Positions 6,709 to 31,320 of a stretch of DNA of 31,320 bases are shown here, piece by piece. Each line of letters opens with the position of its first letter. Within the stretch, counting starts at the first letter, position 1. Location: positions 1-31,320 of the IMG/VR virus record IMGVR_UViG_3300034374_006109; one strand, written 5' to 3'. The position numbers were made by a program, and so were the translations under genes. The DNA is from a virus. A model generated the notes under the pieces. It was not told the DNA's origin, did no database searches, and worked only from the letters and a program-made list of their open reading frames with translations.

Positions 6709-7818
6709 TTATGCGAAGTTTACTAAGTTTGCTAATACAATAAATGTTGCGCTACCTGTCTTAATTATATTATATGTGTAGACATCATATCCACCAGATC
6801 CACCTTCAGATGGTGCAGAACCACCTAACCATTCTTCAGTAGTTGCACCACCATCAATTGTCAATTGTGCAGAATATCCTGCTGCAGCAGCGGCAGAAAT
6901 AATAACAACTGTAATTGATTCACCAGTGCTCATGGAAGAATCAAGTGATGTTGAACTATCAACTCTTATATTTGGTGTTGATGTTGCAGTTTCTGTTGTT
7001 GTAAACAAATGAACCATACCATCAGCAAGATCAATATTTGTATTAGCACTCAGTTTTCCTGCAGTAATATTTACACCCTCTTTGAGTAATCCAGCAACAT
7101 CAAGATTACCTTGGAATGTAGTTGCACCCAGAATTCCAGAAGCAGAATTAAATGTTAGATTACTTCCAGACTTAGGTGGAAGATTTCCAGTTGCTGCAGT
7201 AGTAAATAATGGAAAACAAGTAGTATCAGAAGATTCATCTGCAACTGTTACGTTAGTTGCAGTAGTTGCAGTAGTTGCAGTGGTAGCAGAATCTACACTG
7301 ACTCCATTAAAATTACTATAACTGACAGATTCAAATATATCTCCTGTAGAAGCACCTGTTGTTAATGTGATGGTGGTACTATTTGTCGTAGCATATTCAG
7401 TACTATCAAGTTTTACACCATTTAAATAAACATCAATAAGAGATGAGTCATATGTAGCAACTGTAAATGCTGTTTGTGCATCTGTTGCAACAACTCTGGT
7501 TACAGTTCTGGTTATTGTGGGAATTGTAATATCAGTAACAGAACCATCATCAGACATTGTAATTCCACTACCAACAAAATTAATTGTTGATGCGGCTGAT
7601 GTGATAGAAGTTCCACCAGATTGAATTCCAATTGAACCACCACCAGAAACGCCAGACAGATTGGATCCATCACCATAAAAAGAAGTGGCAGATACTATTC
7701 CTACAACATTTAATGTTGCAGTTGGTTGGGTAGAACCTATACCAATTCTATTATTGGTAATATCGGATGTAATTAAATTGTTGGAGGTTAGATTTGCCTT
7801 CTGTCTATTCTTTCCCAT
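6709..7818 (-). CDS. Tail fiber-like protein with GDGSNLSG module
   Basis: The protein has 369 residues. Residues 1-60 (MGKNRQKANLTSNNLITSDI, NRIGIGSTQPTATLNVVGIV, SATSFYGDGSNLSGVSGGG) form a module shared with the 76-residue gene and with the 977-residue fiber. Residues about 105-170 (TRTVTRVVATDAQTAFTV, DVYLNGVKLDSTEYA, TITLTTGASTGDIFESVSY) match a second module of the 977-residue fiber (VNRYVATASQTLF, DVYINGTKLDSTEF, TVTLTTGATVDDIVELVAY). A TATTATTAT Thr/Ala run follows, coded by 9-base tandem repeats. The C-terminal half is beta-rich (TITVVIISAAAAAGYSAQ, SATFIVLANLVNFA). These are the features of phage tail fibers. A late box ACTAAATA lies upstream; no good ribosome site is seen. Confidence 0.85.
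   Translation of the reverse strand: MGKNRQKANLTSNNLITSDITNNRIGIGSTQPTATLNVVGIVSATSFYGDGSNLSGVSGGGSIGIQSGGTSITSAASTINFVGSGITMSDDGSVTDITIPTITRTVTRVVATDAQTAFTVATYDSSLIDVYLNGVKLDSTEYATTNSTTITLTTGASTGDIFESVSYSNFNGVSVDSATTATTATTATNVTVADESSDTTCFPLFTTAATGNLPPKSGSNLTFNSASGILGATTFQGNLDVAGLLKEGVNITAGKLSANTNIDLADGMVHLFTTTETATSTPNIRVDSSTSLDSSMSTGESITVVIISAAAAAGYSAQLTIDGGATTEEWLGGSAPSEGGSGGYDVYTYNIIKTGSATFIVLANLVNFA
7255..7281. repeat. Three perfect 9-base tandem repeats inside a fiber gene
   Basis: The plus strand has three exact copies of AGTTGCAGT. They encode an Ala-Thr-Thr run on the minus strand. A 9-base unit keeps the reading frame, so gain or loss of a copy would change length, not frame. Confidence 0.8.
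7664..7690. repeat. 27-base exact repeat, copy 2 (with 5729-5755)
   Basis: This is the second copy of the exact repeat described at 5729-5755, here in the 369-residue fiber gene. Confidence 0.8.
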
Positions 7819-9396: not shown

Positions 9397-9404
9397 TATT
9401 TATG
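9397..9404 (-). promoter_or_regulatory. Late promoter box CATAAATA
   Basis: The minus strand reads CATAAATA 24 bases before the ATG of the 127-residue gene. The TAA inside it is the stop codon of the 977-residue fiber. Confidence 0.5.
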
Positions 9405-12333
9405 AGAATAACATTGATTCAAGAATATCAGCACCTGCAGAAACTCCTGTCAAATTAGAACCATCACCAGAAAATGATGTTGCACTGATAATGCCAGAAG
9501 ATCTTATATCGCCCAAAACATCCAACTCGTAGGTGCTATTTGCTGTAGTTCCAATACCAACACTACTTGTGGTATTGATGCCAACTGCATCATCTACCCA
9601 AGGATTATAGACAGAAGTTATATTAACATCAGTGTATGCAACCAGTTCAACAATATCGTCAACAGTTGCACCTGTTGTTAATGTGACAGTAGTTCCATTG
9701 GTTGCAGTAAATTCAGTGCTGTCGAGTTTAGTACCATTGATATAAACATCAACATAACCAACATTATAAGATATAGATCCTGATGATGGGAATAATGTTT
9801 GACTTGCAGTTGCAACATATCGGTTTACTGATCTGGTTGTTGTTCCACCACCTCCTGATGATGCAAAAGTTACACTATCTCCACCAGCATTAGTAGTGAT
9901 AGTCATATTACTACCAGCAACTAATGTCAAAGTATCAGTTGCACTATCAGCAACTACATCACTTTGACCAGCAACAGAAATAGTTTTGAATGCTTCAGTA
10001 GCACCTCCTCCAGATCCAGAGGTAGCAACAGTAGAGATTCCCGTAATTCTTCCATTAGAATCAACTACAATAACTGGTGTTGCACTAGCAGATCCATAAG
10101 TTGCGGCAGAAGCACCAGTTAATCCAGTAAGACTAGAACCATCACCTGAAGGTGTCAAGTAATCAGTTCCTGCTGTCGCAGCAGAAATGTTTCCCCCACC
10201 ATCTGCCTTAACAATACCACTTATGGCCCCAACAACAGGATCTGTTTCTGTATAAGAAGTAAGATAAGTATTTCCATCAACAGACCCATCTGCCTTTAAG
10301 AACTGAGATGATGTTCCAGTGGTAGTTGAAAATCCAGTGGCAGTTACAATACCAGTAATATTTGCACCATTTAGGCCATCAATCTGATATGGAGTATCTA
10401 CCTTATTTGAATTTACTTGAACAGCATTACCCATGTAGGCATGAACACTACACTGATAATGAAGAATAGTCGGAGTAGTGTCGGTTACGACAATTTCAGT
10501 ATATGTTGATGTTGAGGTAACATTTGTGGTGTATTGAGTTGTTCTATCTGCTTCAAGATAGAATCTGAATGGGTGACTAGACATGTCACCAGAACTCAGA
10601 GTAAATCTATAAGTTCTACCAGGAGTAAATGTAAGGAATGGAGATTCTACCCCATCAATTACATAACCATTACTGCTACCCGAACCATTATATCTGTGTG
10701 CTGCAGTCTTAGTAGCAACTGTTACTGCATAGTTAACTGTAGTTCCATGTGGTGCTTGAAGATAATCAAAACCTTTAAGTGCAGTTGTAGTTACAACACC
10801 AGAAGAAACATTAATACCACCAGAAGAAACATTGATACCACCAGTATTAACTATAATTCCACTTCTTGCTGTTATTAGACCAATAGAATCAATATTGGTT
10901 ACATCTTCATAGGTAAGAGTTCCGCCAATAGTAACATTACCACTAAAAGTTGCTATACCAGTAATATTAATATTACCAGTCCCAGTAATATCATTAGAGT
11001 TAAGATCTAAATCTCCACCAAGTTGTGGGGTTGTATCCTGAGAAATATCTGTTAGATAATCTGTTCCTGCTGTTGCTGCAGAAATGGTTGTGCCATTAGA
11101 CTTAACAATTCCATTGATAGCAGCAACTACAGGATCAGTTTCTGTATAAGAAGTTAAATATGTAGAACTATCAACGGAACCATCTGCTTTTAAGAACTGT
11201 GATGATGTTCCACCAGATTTTACAAATGATGTTGCAGTTAGTATTCCGGAAACAATAACTCCTGATGATGTTGTATAGAATTTTAAACTATTATCATAAT
11301 GCAGATGAACACCACCATCATGATAAATGACAATACCATTCTCATTATCATGAGGTCTGAGGTAAATATCACCACCTACATCAGCAGCAACATTAGTGCG
11401 AATATAAAGATTTCCCGTGTCATTGTCTAAGTAACTACTAGTTCCGTTATGATAAATTGATAAGTCTGTTCCCGCACCAAAAGTTAATCTATCATCAGAA
11501 GCAGAAGCACTATCTCCAAAGTTAATATTTTTTGCATTTACATCTAAGTTACCACCAAGTTGTGGTGTAGTATCTTCTACAACATTAGAAATTCCAGTAG
11601 AAGTAAAAGTTATTGCTTTGGAGAATGTAGTTCCAATGCCAACAGATGCAACTGCTTTGGTTGTTATTGCAATACCTGGTCCAGCAATAAACTCAATAGG
11701 TTCTTCACCTGTTGCTTTGAGTGTATCTTGGCCATTAACATACCAGGGATTAAAAGTAGAACCTAAATCAACAAATGCAGTTCCACTACCCTCATCAGAT
11801 ACATTAAATCCAGCTCCATTATTAAATTGAATCTCACTTACATTACTGACAGTTACATTAGTAGCACCACCCTGACTTGCAACTTCCTTAACCGTTAAAG
11901 CAGAACCACCACCTCCAGAAGTAGCAACGGTAGAGATTCCAGTAATTCTTCCACCAGAATCTACAGTAATAACTGGTGTTACGCTAGAACCACCATAAGT
12001 TGCGGCAGAAGCACCAGTAAGTCCAGTTAAATTTGCACCTGAACCAGCAAAAGAAGTAGCAGTTACTGTTCCATCAACATCCAGTTTTGTGGTTGGTAAT
12101 GTAGAGCCAATACCAACATTGCCCTCAGTAAAGTATGCGTTATATGTATCTGTTCCAGCACCAACTCTAAATGGGTTGATAGCAATAACTGTGGTTCCAA
12201 TACCTACATTTTTGGATGCGTAGAGATATCCATCATAGGTATTAAGAGCTATCTCACCCAAAGGAACCTGGTCTGGTGTAGGAATCTTTCCCTCTACAGA
12301 AGACCTTTTCAGTCTAATTTTTGGATCTGCCAT
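9400..12333 (-). CDS. Long tail fiber with embedded cupredoxin-like domain
   Basis: The protein has 977 residues. The N-terminus (KIRLKRSSVEGKIPTPDQVP, LGEIALNTYDGYLYASKNVG) is the conserved virion-attachment head of marine phage fibers. Repeated modules follow: ATSFAGSGANLTGLTG, VTPVITVDSGGRITGISTVA (two copies), SSQFLKADGSVD..TYLTSYTETDPVV (two copies), DTTPQLGG.LD (two copies), and a terminal ATSFSGDGSNLTGVS. Residues about 540-645 look like a cupredoxin: FTPGRTYRFTLSSG, then HPFRFY with His587, then HYQCSVHAYMGN with Cys628, His631 and Met634. The Cys-x2-His-x2-Met spacing is that of amicyanin. Residues about 830-905 repeat the INGTKLDSTEF module of the 369-residue fiber. The role is probably host recognition; copper binding is inferred only. 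A GAGGG lies just before the ATG, and the leader holds two palindromes. Confidence 0.9.
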   Translation of the reverse strand: MADPKIRLKRSSVEGKIPTPDQVPLGEIALNTYDGYLYASKNVGIGTTVIAINPFRVGAGTDTYNAYFTEGNVGIGSTLPTTKLDVDGTVTATSFAGSGANLTGLTGASAATYGGSSVTPVITVDSGGRITGISTVATSGGGGSALTVKEVASQGGATNVTVSNVSEIQFNNGAGFNVSDEGSGTAFVDLGSTFNPWYVNGQDTLKATGEEPIEFIAGPGIAITTKAVASVGIGTTFSKAITFTSTGISNVVEDTTPQLGGNLDVNAKNINFGDSASASDDRLTFGAGTDLSIYHNGTSSYLDNDTGNLYIRTNVAADVGGDIYLRPHDNENGIVIYHDGGVHLHYDNSLKFYTTSSGVIVSGILTATSFVKSGGTSSQFLKADGSVDSSTYLTSYTETDPVVAAINGIVKSNGTTISAATAGTDYLTDISQDTTPQLGGDLDLNSNDITGTGNINITGIATFSGNVTIGGTLTYEDVTNIDSIGLITARSGIIVNTGGINVSSGGINVSSGVVTTTALKGFDYLQAPHGTTVNYAVTVATKTAAHRYNGSGSSNGYVIDGVESPFLTFTPGRTYRFTLSSGDMSSHPFRFYLEADRTTQYTTNVTSTSTYTEIVVTDTTPTILHYQCSVHAYMGNAVQVNSNKVDTPYQIDGLNGANITGIVTATGFSTTTGTSSQFLKADGSVDGNTYLTSYTETDPVVGAISGIVKADGGGNISAATAGTDYLTPSGDGSSLTGLTGASAATYGSASATPVIVVDSNGRITGISTVATSGSGGGATEAFKTISVAGQSDVVADSATDTLTLVAGSNMTITTNAGGDSVTFASSGGGGTTTRSVNRYVATASQTLFPSSGSISYNVGYVDVYINGTKLDSTEFTATNGTTVTLTTGATVDDIVELVAYTDVNITSVYNPWVDDAVGINTTSSVGIGTTANSTYELDVLGDIRSSGIISATSFSGDGSNLTGVSAGADILESMLFS
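10021..10130. repeat. Internal repeat A of long fiber (with 11920-12029)
   Basis: About 110 bases are similar to 11920-12029. They encode the TPVIxVDSxGRITGISTVATSG module twice in the same fiber gene. Confidence 0.7.
10207..10316. repeat. Internal repeat B of long fiber (with 11101-11210)
   Basis: About 110 bases are similar to 11101-11210. They encode the SSQFLKADGSVDxxTYLTSY and TETDPVV module twice. Repeats A and B flank the cupredoxin-like segment in the gene. Confidence 0.7.
10799..10840. repeat. Two 21-base tandem repeats in the long fiber
   Basis: Units 10799-10819 and 10820-10840 differ at one base. They encode GGINVSS twice, with a partial third unit after. The repeat keeps the reading frame. 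Confidence 0.8.
11101..11210. repeat. Internal repeat B, second copy
   Basis: This is the partner of 10207-10316, upstream of the cupredoxin-like segment in the reading direction. Confidence 0.7.
11920..12029. repeat. Internal repeat A, second copy
   Basis: This is the partner of 10021-10130, near the 5' end of the fiber gene. Confidence 0.7.
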
Positions 12334-16244: not shown

Positions 16245-17660
16245 TTAGGGCATACCGAATGGATTTCTCTCACTGAAGTCAATAATACTATCTGCTTCAT
16301 TCTCTATTTCTTCATTTGAAGTGAATCCTGTTTCTGGATAAGATGCGGAAGCAAGTTTGTAACTTGCTGAAGAAGCAGAGCCGACAATTTGCTCCCCAAC
16401 AACAAAATCTCCATCTGCTCTGTAGATTTCTAATGAACTTCCGTCTGCAACCCAATTGAGAACTCTTGCTGTAGATCCAGAAATAGAACCGGTAACAATT
16501 TCGTTCTTCTGGAAAGTTCCAACTCCAATCTGATTTGGTGCTGCAATAGTGATAGTTGGTGGTTCGGTATATCCCAGACCAGCATTAGTAAGATAAATCG
16601 CACTAATTGATCCAGCAGCACTAACAACAACTGTTGCAGCTGCAGAAACTGTTGAAATTCCACTGAATGTTACAAATGGTGCAGTTGCTGTTGTATAACC
16701 AGAACCGCCACCAGTAATAGTAACAATTCCAAGAACACCATTTCCAATAAATGCGGTTGCAGCAGCTCCAACACCATCACCGACAAATCTAACTGAAGGA
16801 GAAACTGTATAACCAGAACCTGGATTTGTAAGAAGAACTCTTTGAATAGATTCTGCGACTGGATTTGCGTTGAGTTCGCAGGCAACAATTCCAGAAATTC
16901 TCTCCGCAGTTGCTATTCCAGTTACACCTGGAGAGGATGATATTGCAACTCTTGGATTGTAAGTATATCCGCCGCCACGATTTGTGACACTAATTTGTCT
17001 AATACCGCCATCAGAAATATACCCTACAGTTGCTAATGCAGTTGTTCCAACCCCAACAAGACTTAGGAGTGTTGTCATTGCATCACCACCCAGAAGTTCT
17101 GAATCAGAAGCACCTAAAGTTCCCGCAATCGAATCATCAATTTCAGCAATATCAGTATCGATAACTTCGTTTTCGTATCTGAAGAGTTCACACTTTACTG
17201 TATATACGTATCCTTTCTGTAACTGATAGAAAGGTTTTTCGTGCTCTACAAACTTAATTTCAAATAATCTATCCCCAAGAGGGAAATAAATTAGGTCACC
17301 TTCTTTAGGCCTATTGCTAATTTTTATATTATCTTTTCCTGCTAAAAGTGGAGAAATATAATTCTCAAATCTTTCTTTTGAAATTGTGAGAGTTATTTCT
17401 TGAGTTGATTGGATTCCAAATTTAGATAAAATTGTTGTCTGATCGCCATATCCCTCAAAGTTTTCTACATATGCTTCAATTGGATGGGCTTCATCAAACT
17501 CAGATTCAATAACTTCTCTAATAACAGTTTTTTCTGTAATAAATTTTCTGGGCATATAATGAACTTCAACTCCATACATACGAAGTTGTTCATTAATTAA
17601 GTCCTGAATCAGATTCTGTTCTGATGGAGCACCTTGAAGAAAGAAAGGATTTAATGCCAT
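16245..17660 (-). CDS. 14: Neck protein gp14 with inserted repeats
   Basis: The protein has 471 residues (T4 gp14 has 256). Residues 1-175 carry the gp14 pattern: NPFFLQGAPSEQNLIQDLIN, EQLRMYGVEVHYMPRKF, LSKFGIQSTQEITLTISKER, PKEGDLIYFPLGDRLFEIKF. The C-terminus EIENEADSIIDFSERNPFG is also typical. Between them, residues about 215-375 hold four GxGYT repeats (GGGYTYNPRV, GSGYTVSPSV, GSGYTTATAP, GLGYTEPPTI), and residues about 380-430 hold a NEIVTGSISGSTARVLNW module. These inserts explain the extra length. gp14 joins gp13 in the neck that connects head and tail. Its start lies 4 bases after the gp13 stop. Confidence 0.92.
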   Translation of the reverse strand: MALNPFFLQGAPSEQNLIQDLINEQLRMYGVEVHYMPRKFITEKTVIREVIESEFDEAHPIEAYVENFEGYGDQTTILSKFGIQSTQEITLTISKERFENYISPLLAGKDNIKISNRPKEGDLIYFPLGDRLFEIKFVEHEKPFYQLQKGYVYTVKCELFRYENEVIDTDIAEIDDSIAGTLGASDSELLGGDAMTTLLSLVGVGTTALATVGYISDGGIRQISVTNRGGGYTYNPRVAISSSPGVTGIATAERISGIVACELNANPVAESIQRVLLTNPGSGYTVSPSVRFVGDGVGAAATAFIGNGVLGIVTITGGGSGYTTATAPFVTFSGISTVSAAATVVVSAAGSISAIYLTNAGLGYTEPPTITIAAPNQIGVGTFQKNEIVTGSISGSTARVLNWVADGSSLEIYRADGDFVVGEQIVGSASSASYKLASASYPETGFTSNEEIENEADSIIDFSERNPFGMP

Positions 17661-27913: not shown

Positions 27914-30900
27914 TCACACATTATAGTTGGATATCTTCAGTGGTACAAATCTTCTGATCACAGCAGAAGTTGAAATTCCAGTTACACCATTTTCATTATA
28001 GGAGTTGAAGTTAGATAATGAAGTTCTCGCCGTGGTGTTAATTTTACCAAAACTATAATCTCCAAAATAAGTATTTACTCCAACATCAGTAAAGTCATAA
28101 CCATTGTAACTTAGAACACTAATAGTGATATCATTAACCATAGTAGAACCATATCCAGGAAGAGTTTTTTGGGTGGTTGCTGAACCAACAACCTCATAAA
28201 CATTATCAATACAAGTAGTTCCTACGCCAACTGCAACTGAGTTTCCATATTTGAGCGAAGTGACGCCAAATCCGATATTAGAGTTTCTGACTACAAAGAA
28301 ATCGCCAACAGCAAGACCACTAACAGTAATTGCTGTTCCTACCAGAGTATCATTTCTTAGTGCAGAATCAGTAGGAATAAACAGACTCAGAATCAATCCA
28401 GTAGATGCAACACCAACAATGCTAGTAGTTGCTACTCCAACAATAGTTCCAAAATCTCCACTATAAGTAATTCCTGCATTAAGTCTTTCTGTAATAGCTA
28501 CTGGCGATTCAATAAGAACAACTGGTGGGTTTGACTGCGAATAACCAGTCTTAGCAGCACCTAGAGTAATTGAAGTTACGACTCCAGCAGTGATAGATGC
28601 AGTTGCAGTTTGTCTTTGATCAGAACCAAGTCCAACAGGATTTCCAATAACAACAGTGGGTGATGTAGTGTATCCAACACCACCATCAGAGATTGAAATT
28701 GATGTGATTGTTCCTGCGGACCCAACAATGGCAGTGGCAGATGCTCCTACTCTCGTATCTTGTGAAACCAGTAGAACATCCTTCTGGAATGAAAGTGATG
28801 TTTCACTTTCATTATCTTGATTGAATAGAACTTGAACATTCTCAACATAGATATTTGTTGAACCAACTCCAACAGTCTGAATTACATTAGTTGTTGGGAA
28901 AATATTTGCTTTATATTGAGGTCTGTCCTTACCTACTCTTTCTCCGTTAATAATCTTGTCTTCTGTTTGCTTGCACCAAGTAACTGGTCTTTCCATGGTA
29001 ATATTATTTGCAAGACCAGGGCCATAGTATGCATTTGTAGTTACTTGTTCAGTAGAATCAATACTATAAACAAGTCTTCTATCCTCATCAAAGTAAGATG
29101 ATTGACCTCTTGCCGAATCATAATCAATATCTAAGGTATCACCTTCTTTGACAGTCTCAAGAATATCAACGGTCCTAACATCAACATCTCCATTTCCTCT
29201 GTAGAAAAGAATATCCACGGTATCACCGGGTTTTAGTGGTTCTGGGAATACAATTGTACTTCCTCCATTAAAGATATAACCTTCACCTGGCACTTGAAGA
29301 ATACTATTGACGAGGACAATTAAAACATCTTGTATAACAATACTTGAACCCTTAGATGTCATAATGGAGGTAATGTTTCCACCAATTTTGAGTTGGAAAT
29401 CAGTTTTTTGTCCATCAAATTCATCATCAAAACTATCCATTGTTTGAAGTTGGCCAATAGACCATCCAGCAAACTTATCCGAATAAATCTTTTCAATATT
29501 GATAGTAAATCTTTCAAACTCGCCGCCAAGAGTTGGATTTGTTGGAATTCCTGTAGGGCCACCCGTGGGAAGAGTTAAGAATTGACCTGCTCCATATCCA
29601 AATCCAGTGTTAGAAATTTCAAAGTCAACAATATCGGAACCAAATCCAACATTAACATTAATTTTAGCCTGAGAACCAACTCCAGTCGAAGGTTCAGCAA
29701 GACCATCAGTTTGATAGACAAGAGGAATATTTTCATAAGAAAGTGGGTCTTCAATAATCACTTCTGGTGGATTTGTGGAAGTATATCCCTCACCAGGACT
29801 TGTTATATGTACTGTCTCAAGAAGGTGTCCAGCACTAATGGTAGCAACACCAATATGAGTTACTGTTTGAATGCCAACAGAACTGCTTGCAACACCAACG
29901 CGAACAATACCTACTGATGGATTGAAAACTCTGACGATGACAGAAGTGCCTGCTGGGATATCAAGAGAAGATACGCTACTAATACCGATAGTTACCGAAG
30001 TTGTTCCAAAACCAGTGATTGCAGTTGGTCTGCTGAAGAAAGTTCCAACACCAATTGAGGATGCAGCCCCCGCATTAAATTCAAGGAACTTAAATACACT
30101 ATTTTCATTATTAAGAGTGATTGTCGTGCTGCTAGCAGAAACTGTTGTTGCAACACTGGTAAGAACATCATATTGTGTAGATGCTCTATATCCAGAACCT
30201 GTACTTCCGATAGTGATGGCAGAGATAGTTCCAGCAACAGATACTGTTGATGTGCCACCAGCAGAGACGAGGGGTTGATAACCAAATCCACTAGAAGAAC
30301 CAACAGAAACGATAACGCCACCAATAGGAAGATTAGAAGAATTTACATCATTGGTGATAGTCTGTCCATCATTGACAAAGATTGCAGATGTAATACCTGC
30401 CTGTTCTGCAAGAGTGAAGTTTTGATTTAAACCTGGAATTTGAATAATATCGTTAATCAGGATAATAGCGTTATCATCTTCATATCCAGTAGTATCAGAA
30501 CCACTAGACTTTAACGCGAATGTGTCGTTGGAACCATTAAACTGGTCAGAAATGTCATCAAAGAGATAATTTCTGCCATATGTTCTGATGGTTGATCCTG
30601 GGGTTCCAGATCTCAAGAACACTCTTCCTTGGAATGTTGAACTGGTTTCAATTCCAGTCCAATCTCTCTCTGATGGTCTAACAAAATTGACATCAAAAAT
30701 AGGAAGGTTTCCATAAGGAGCTTCGACAAAATTGAGAGTATTATTTACAATGTTGTAATTTCCCTGAACTTTAGTTACAAGTGCCCCAGTAGAATAACCT
30801 GCTCTTCTTGTTCCAAGCCATGCTCTTTGAACTCTTACGATATTTGTAGAACCAACGCCAACTGATTCTACTTTCATAATTTCATCACCAATCTGAATCA

Positions 30901-31320
30901 AGTCACCACCAGAAATGGACCCAATTCCACTCATATACATAAAACTTTGACTTGAGAATAATTGATCACTTAAAGAAGAAGTAAGTGCAGTTGCAACAAC
31001 TGGTGACTGAATATAATTATCAATAGCAATTAGACACTTAGTATTTTGGTCATTTGCGGTGAATGTATGCGAAGTTCCAATACCGACTGTAGTGATGTTA
31101 AAATAATCGGTTGGTATAGGTGACAGTGCTTTTTCTGCAGTATCTGTAAGTCTAATCTTATTGGAATCAATCTTAATTACGTATACATCTTCTGGAAGTT
31201 TGTCAGTGTTACCAATTCCAGAAATATTTGTCAATCCAATACCAATATTTTCTGTTGTTCCTGCACCTGGAGTAGAATAAGTTAATTTTTCTCCCGTTAC
31301 AAAGAAATGATTTGGTATTG
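27914..31320 (-). CDS. Large virion protein in gp7 position (5' end outside window)
   Basis: The frame is open from the right window edge to a TGA at 27914-27916, so 1134 residues of an incomplete protein are visible. It is a mosaic of beta modules. One is GDLIQIGDEIMKVESVGVG...RAWLGTRRAGYSTGALV. A pair of 'FNG/FDG...FxL' modules follows (DQFNGSNDTFALKSSG with IILINDIIQIPG; DEFDGQKTDFQLKIGG with IVLVNSILQVPG). Several GxGYT units are present (GEGYTSTNPPEVIIEDP, GVGYTTSPTVVIGNP, KTGYSQSNPPVVLIESP). ITMERPVTWCKQTEDKIING and KDRPQYKANIFPTTNVIQTV lie in the middle. It sits directly upstream of gp8, where T4 has gp7 (1032 residues). I infer a baseplate-wedge role from position and cannot see clear T4 gp7 homology. 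The gp8 gene starts 57 bases on. Confidence 0.85.
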   Translation of the reverse strand, partial: IPNHFFVTGEKLTYSTPGAGTTENIGIGLTNISGIGNTDKLPEDVYVIKIDSNKIRLTDTAEKALSPIPTDYFNITTVGIGTSHTFTANDQNTKCLIAIDNYIQSPVVATALTSSLSDQLFSSQSFMYMSGIGSISGGDLIQIGDEIMKVESVGVGSTNIVRVQRAWLGTRRAGYSTGALVTKVQGNYNIVNNTLNFVEAPYGNLPIFDVNFVRPSERDWTGIETSSTFQGRVFLRSGTPGSTIRTYGRNYLFDDISDQFNGSNDTFALKSSGSDTTGYEDDNAIILINDIIQIPGLNQNFTLAEQAGITSAIFVNDGQTITNDVNSSNLPIGGVIVSVGSSSGFGYQPLVSAGGTSTVSVAGTISAITIGSTGSGYRASTQYDVLTSVATTVSASSTTITLNNENSVFKFLEFNAGAASSIGVGTFFSRPTAITGFGTTSVTIGISSVSSLDIPAGTSVIVRVFNPSVGIVRVGVASSSVGIQTVTHIGVATISAGHLLETVHITSPGEGYTSTNPPEVIIEDPLSYENIPLVYQTDGLAEPSTGVGSQAKINVNVGFGSDIVDFEISNTGFGYGAGQFLTLPTGGPTGIPTNPTLGGEFERFTINIEKIYSDKFAGWSIGQLQTMDSFDDEFDGQKTDFQLKIGGNITSIMTSKGSSIVIQDVLIVLVNSILQVPGEGYIFNGGSTIVFPEPLKPGDTVDILFYRGNGDVDVRTVDILETVKEGDTLDIDYDSARGQSSYFDEDRRLVYSIDSTEQVTTNAYYGPGLANNITMERPVTWCKQTEDKIINGERVGKDRPQYKANIFPTTNVIQTVGVGSTNIYVENVQVLFNQDNESETSLSFQKDVLLVSQDTRVGASATAIVGSAGTITSISISDGGVGYTTSPTVVIGNPVGLGSDQRQTATASITAGVVTSITLGAAKTGYSQSNPPVVLIESPVAITERLNAGITYSGDFGTIVGVATTSIVGVASTGLILSLFIPTDSALRNDTLVGTAITVSGLAVGDFFVVRNSNIGFGVTSLKYGNSVAVGVGTTCIDNVYEVVGSATTQKTLPGYGSTMVNDITISVLSYNGYDFTDVGVNTYFGDYSFGKINTTARTSLSNFNSYNENGVTGISTSAVIRRFVPLKISNYNV

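Follow-up and report, generated by a model that had tools for sequence, protein, structure and literature searches.

The established roles of blue copper domains are to carry electrons and to form parts of oxidases. A tail fiber encoded by an ocean virus raises the question of whether such a domain, complete with its copper site, can also be a component of a virion. The window analyzed, a 31,320-base viral record, has the gene set of a T4-like marine myovirus, as judged by gene content: head-tail connectors, a sheath stabilizer, a small terminase, baseplate wedge subunits and fibers, all on the minus strand. On the evidence below, we think it likely that the fiber carries a cupredoxin domain whose type-1 copper site is intact, and that this domain is an exchangeable module of the parts with which marine tailed phages contact their hosts. 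Copper binding is a prediction, and a role of the domain in host contact is proposed with less confidence than copper binding.

A cupredoxin domain inserted in a tail fiber

The fiber (Table 1) is probably what this ocean phage uses to touch its host. A preliminary description placed a cupredoxin-like domain at 10385-10720. The domain itself is upheld, but its bounds are slightly offset, as the family profile extends from 10414 to 10731. The four proposed ligands, His587, Cys628, His631 and Met634, stand in the open reading frame exactly where they had been placed, with 40 residues between H587 and C628. The loop reads C-x2-H-x2-M, as expected from the amicyanin-type spacing that had been noted. 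In alignment register, the residues occupy the order, strands and loop of a type-1 site, that is His-Cys-His plus an axial Met or Gln. This register suggests that the four predicted ligands converge in space.

The domain had also been portrayed as an insertion between duplicated fiber modules, and two copies with 82% identity (residues 379-428 and 677-727; E 4e-27) do flank it. A 369-aa neighbor (window 6709-7818) has three modules in common with the 977-aa fiber, at 52-55% identity, which indicates that fiber parts have been shuffled inside the gene cluster. Elsewhere in the window (16245-17660 and 27914-31318), the C-terminal extension of a head closure protein (gp14-like) has a module in common with a baseplate wedge ORF (40% over 57 aa, E 4e-7).

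Table 1. Features of the tail fiber gene and its cupredoxin domain (window coordinates)
Feature	Position	Strand	Details
Tail fiber carrying the domain	9400..12333	-	977 aa; PHROG 30742 'tail fiber protein', E 8e-69; among T4-like structural genes
Fiber module copy A	11050..11199	-	residues 379-428; 82% identity to copy B
Cupredoxin domain	10414..10731	-	fiber residues 535-640; family HMM E 2.9e-32; AlphaFold2; structure matches
His587, first equatorial ligand position	10573..10575	-	alignment
Cys628, thiolate ligand position	10450..10452	-	alignment; sole Cys in the 977-aa fiber
His631, second equatorial His position	10441..10443	-	alignment
Met634, axial ligand position	10432..10434	-	alignment; Gln in rare relatives
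Fiber module copy B	10153..10305	-	residues 677-727; 82% identity to copy A

Predicted fold and relationship to known cupredoxins

Structure prediction and profile searches had been suggested as checks on the domain. AlphaFold2, run with an alignment, gave an all-beta model (pLDDT 89.9, pTM 0.82) that is nearest to cupredoxins. Foldseek against PDB ranked rusticyanins first (E 2.2e-3), and the leading VIA match was the cupredoxin domain at the N-terminus of nitrite reductase from H. denitrificans (2dv6; Z 9.1, rmsd 2.9, 95 aligned), followed by two-domain laccases; the top of the list consists entirely of copper proteins. The model thus has the cupredoxin beta-sandwich fold, with Z scores (8-9) that are moderate for a beta-sandwich. 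Structure matches to the model in BFVD include cyanophage fibers as well as small giant-virus proteins named 'beta-sandwich proteins', such as A0A481Z6J5, A0A481Z7Q7 and A0A481YY19 (Pithovirus/Marseillevirus LCPAC, LCMAC), some of which are 124-133 aa long.

When the family profile was compared with PDB, pseudoazurin (0.0044) and plastocyanins (0.007-0.035) led the matches. The alignments matched the Cys-His loop in both and, in plastocyanins, the first His as well. Similarly, hhalign of the phage family with marine plastocyanins (E 5e-4) aligned the Cys-His pair, and also the first His, with their plastocyanin counterparts. A secreted 134-aa cupredoxin of Prochlorococcus matches both PF00127 (Copper-bind; 33 bits; cut-off 21.2) and the phage family profile (E 1.5e-12), and therefore joins the two. 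PF00127 also matches a copy in phage P-SSM2 (E 1.8e-4). These four lines of evidence place the family in the cupredoxin superfamily. Alignment, fold prediction and profile matches agree with the original proposal of a cupredoxin fold with a complete type-1 ligand set.

The window domain is not filed under the plastocyanin/azurin family proper (PF00127). It passed no cut-off in Pfam or NCBIfam and is absent from the list of PF00127 matches, and the phage copies scored lie under the curated cut-off of that family, 21.2 bits (14.4-19.8 bits). On the phage-family alignment, PF00127 gave weak matches in 10 of 80 members (best E 0.013). More generally, the scores examined for phage copies against Pfam and NCBIfam cupredoxin models are below, or were not shown to pass, the curated cut-offs. 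A PDB sequence search found no structure of the family.

Recent capture of a phage-borne plastocyanin gene was considered as an origin and rejected, because the petE-like plastocyanin of P-SSM2 (66.9 bits against PF00127) is a separate gene, and the other matching copy in this phage falls under the cut-off.

Small secreted cupredoxins with an SHPF or RHPF strand are encoded in Prochlorococcus and Bacteroidetes genomes (L387:376-780, minus strand; L388; L389:214-609, plus strand). These proteins are probably related to the phage module and exist outside phages as free-living forms of it.

The ligand set is nearly always kept or lost as a whole

The motif CxxHxxM is present in all 80 close relatives from IMG/VR, and further scans yielded at least hundreds of more distant copies. 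In a diverse alignment of 80 sequences, with a mean column identity of 42%, H587, C628, H631 and M634 are the sole invariant columns. Even a nearly identical fiber (L001) has the loop CSSHEYMG in place of CSVHAYMG; the intervening positions vary and the ligands are constant. This invariance across relatives rules out a chance motif.

Because some seed patterns included the Cys-His loop, part of the sampling was biased, and three controls were run. The first control used a profile limited to the initial part of the domain, in which the leading His was masked. Of the 198 distinct viral copies that were complete, 191 show C-x2-H-x2-M. Three of the seven exceptions have C-x2-H-x3-M, in one the motif lies just past the inspected stretch, and three are without it. 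In the second control, the four ligand columns of the profile were all masked; run on 564 sequences, which comprised every locus together with the window, it recovered 334 non-redundant copies. All four ligands are present in 296 of these, and His-Cys-His with another axial letter in five, so His-Cys-His is kept in 301 of 334. The remaining 33 have none or one of the four. The copies thus form two groups, and no copy has two ligands. Finally, non-seed copies in loci fetched by the fiber N-terminus have the ligand set in 10 of 10 cases, and 54 first-domain copies of gp7, likewise not used as seeds, keep it too.

Three of the five axial variants carry Gln, which is the axial ligand of stellacyanin-type sites. 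The other two, both small secreted cupredoxins, have a loop with two extra residues that ends in Met.

The preliminary description held that homologues keeping the fold but losing Cys, His and Met would speak against a copper site. Such homologues exist, as the paralogous second-domain clade of cyanophage baseplate wedge proteins, as cyanophage PSS2 gp080, and as a few single copies. However, the ligands are lost as a set, which indicates a shared metal site rather than arguing against one. In a tree, the 33 ligand-poor copies represent five loss events, and a single clade holds 28 of them; independent losses are therefore few. The 36 complete copies without the ligand set appear to be the second domain of gp7. 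The window copy has all four ligands and lies apart from the ligand-free clade, which forms its own branch within the baseplate wedge proteins.

When modeled from its own 25-sequence alignment, the ligand-free clade is predicted with a pLDDT of 93.3, and VIA returned a list of cupredoxins led by auracyanin A (Z 8.1). Because this clade is still predicted to be a cupredoxin, the fold would seem not to need the four residues, and selection presumably acts on the site itself. Copies that retain these residues retain them together, which has the look of a metal site.

Cyanophages with gp7-like wedge proteins (L461, L462, L464 and L560-L562, which are cultured, and L480-L559) have four ligands in the first cupredoxin domain of the protein and none in the second. 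The gp9 gene adjoining the gp7-like gene also has four ligands, so each virion offers a natural pair with and without the set. PSS2 gp080 (L466:2492-2830) is a stand-alone 112-aa virion-type cupredoxin without the Cys and His ligands; it is annotated as a baseplate wedge subunit, and its gene is downstream of the tape measure gene.

A module of marine phage tails

The suspicion that the family might be widespread among marine viruses is borne out, as the module recurs in tail parts of many marine phages. It is found in fibers of the cultured T4-like cyanophages P-SSM2, P-TIM68 and Bellamy, in the gp9 'baseplate wedge tail fiber connector' (PHROG 677) of many Synechococcus phages, and in the gp7-like wedge protein of cultured cyanophages. 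T7-like pelagiphage fibers with a PF03906 N-terminus have the domain close to the C-terminus, and it is also present in HTVC028P and in Methylophilales phage Melnitz. Among the matches listed, the named hosts are Synechococcus, Prochlorococcus, SAR11 and OM43.

Fibers with an N-terminus of the window type occur both with the domain (L417, L420) and, as complete ORFs, without it (L422, L423, L427, L434, L435, L438), and one locus (L005) has two copies. Thus, the domain behaves as an exchangeable module.

We also considered a common gene derived from the host. This origin was rejected, because genomes seldom match (two of 101 in the Prochlorococcus family and two of 147 in the Pelagibacter family). 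The Pelagibacter 'host' contigs tested carry T7-type phage fibers (PF03906) and are therefore phage.

Giant proteins of marine Bacteroidetes, encoded by open frames of 13,623 and 5,494 aa, also contain the domain (L372 in G007:C16 and L385 in G001:C44, respectively). The L385 protein has FG-GAP and Ig-like repeats, and one copy among these two proteins has lost the ligands.

Possible functions of the site

If the site is what it resembles, the domain would bind one copper ion with high affinity. The copper could be picked up in the infected cell, at lysis, or from seawater. Once loaded, the site would support a rigid beta-sandwich shown on the fiber, the gp9 connector and the gp7 wedge, and this displayed sandwich might contribute when the phage touches the host envelope. 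Phage tails may therefore carry copper. A more ambitious version, in which fibers and baseplates of abundant ocean phages infecting Synechococcus, Prochlorococcus, SAR11 and OM43 bear genuine type-1 copper sites, with several on each virion and a function at host contact, is speculative and on balance unlikely; such sites might, for example, offer copper to a metal receptor of the host or sense a reducing envelope.

Conservation by itself does not distinguish copper from another thiophilic metal. The set would hold Zn or Co in vitro, as cupredoxin ligand sets do, and iron is present in the tip of T4 gp37. The P2 spike, another tail part that contacts the host, is iron-loaded according to a citation in PMC5797145, which provides a precedent for metal staples in phage tails. 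The natural metal of the phage domain could accordingly be Zn, Fe or Ni, serving as a structural staple of this kind. However, relatives of known chemistry are copper proteins, Cys-x2-His-x2-Met is the type-1 copper loop, and the known fiber staples are His sites that have no thiolate. We consider a metal other than copper improbable. Likewise, it is quite improbable that Cys, His and Met are kept purely for the fold of a metal-free, Ig-like fiber spacer. The domain is used much as Ig-like spacers are, repeated in tandem or built into giant multidomain proteins, and the ligand-free branch in a baseplate protein shows that the module can do a virion job without metal. Yet that same branch retains the predicted fold without these residues, ligand loss is all-or-none, and the sole axial change with His-Cys-His intact is to Gln, a known axial ligand.

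Because the design of type-1 sites serves electron transfer, the copper might instead be reduced at the host envelope, and the resulting change might signal commitment of the fiber or baseplate. The presence of copies in the baseplate parts gp7 and gp9 would suit such a trigger or carrier. However, type-1 sites are rigid, and their shape barely differs between redox states; moreover, no partner is known, and a single isolated site per fiber chain makes no circuit. These considerations make an electron carrier or redox trigger very improbable, and a copper-loaded module for binding or stability is the more likely function.

A search of the literature, with many journals and all preprints outside its reach, did not find a cupredoxin in a phage fiber or baseplate. 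As far as that search extends, cupredoxins are well known, but a conserved type-1 copper-site module on phage fibers and baseplates is apparently undescribed. If the prediction is correct, a conserved copper-site domain on the adsorption apparatus of marine phages would represent a new use of the cupredoxin fold, copper would be a new virion metal, and it would be carried on very many ocean virus particles. Metal analysis and spectroscopy of cultured phages offer a direct test.

Comparison with known systems

The closest known proteins are plastocyanin, pseudoazurin and amicyanin (PF00127), which give the best PDB profile matches and have in common with the phage domain the predicted fold, the His...Cys-x2-His-...-Met order and the register; amicyanin also has the C-x2-H-x2-M spacing. 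Plastocyanin has 'HN' after the first His, whereas the phage domain has 'HP'. In addition, PF00127 proteins are soluble electron carriers, whereas the phage copies, which score under the Pfam cut-off, are part of virion proteins. P-SSM2 has a true plastocyanin gene that is distinct from its fiber domain.

Cupredoxins fused to copper nitrite reductases (N-terminal in 2dv6, C-terminal in 6hbe) include the top structure match (2dv6, Z 9.1), and the 6hbe segment YICSIHPYMKG is similar to YQCSVHAYMGN in the phage domain. Unlike the phage domain, they are non-viral and serve electron transfer in an enzyme. The small secreted cupredoxins of Prochlorococcus (L387) and Bacteroidetes (L389) share the SHPF strand and the Cys-His-Met loop, but they are free proteins with an apparent signal peptide, and the Prochlorococcus loop is longer (C-x2-H-x4-M).

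Among phage-tail metal sites, the P2 spike and the T4 gp37 tip resemble the predicted site in placing a metal in a tail part that contacts the host. They differ in that their iron is held by His in a trimeric needle, with neither a thiolate nor a cupredoxin fold.
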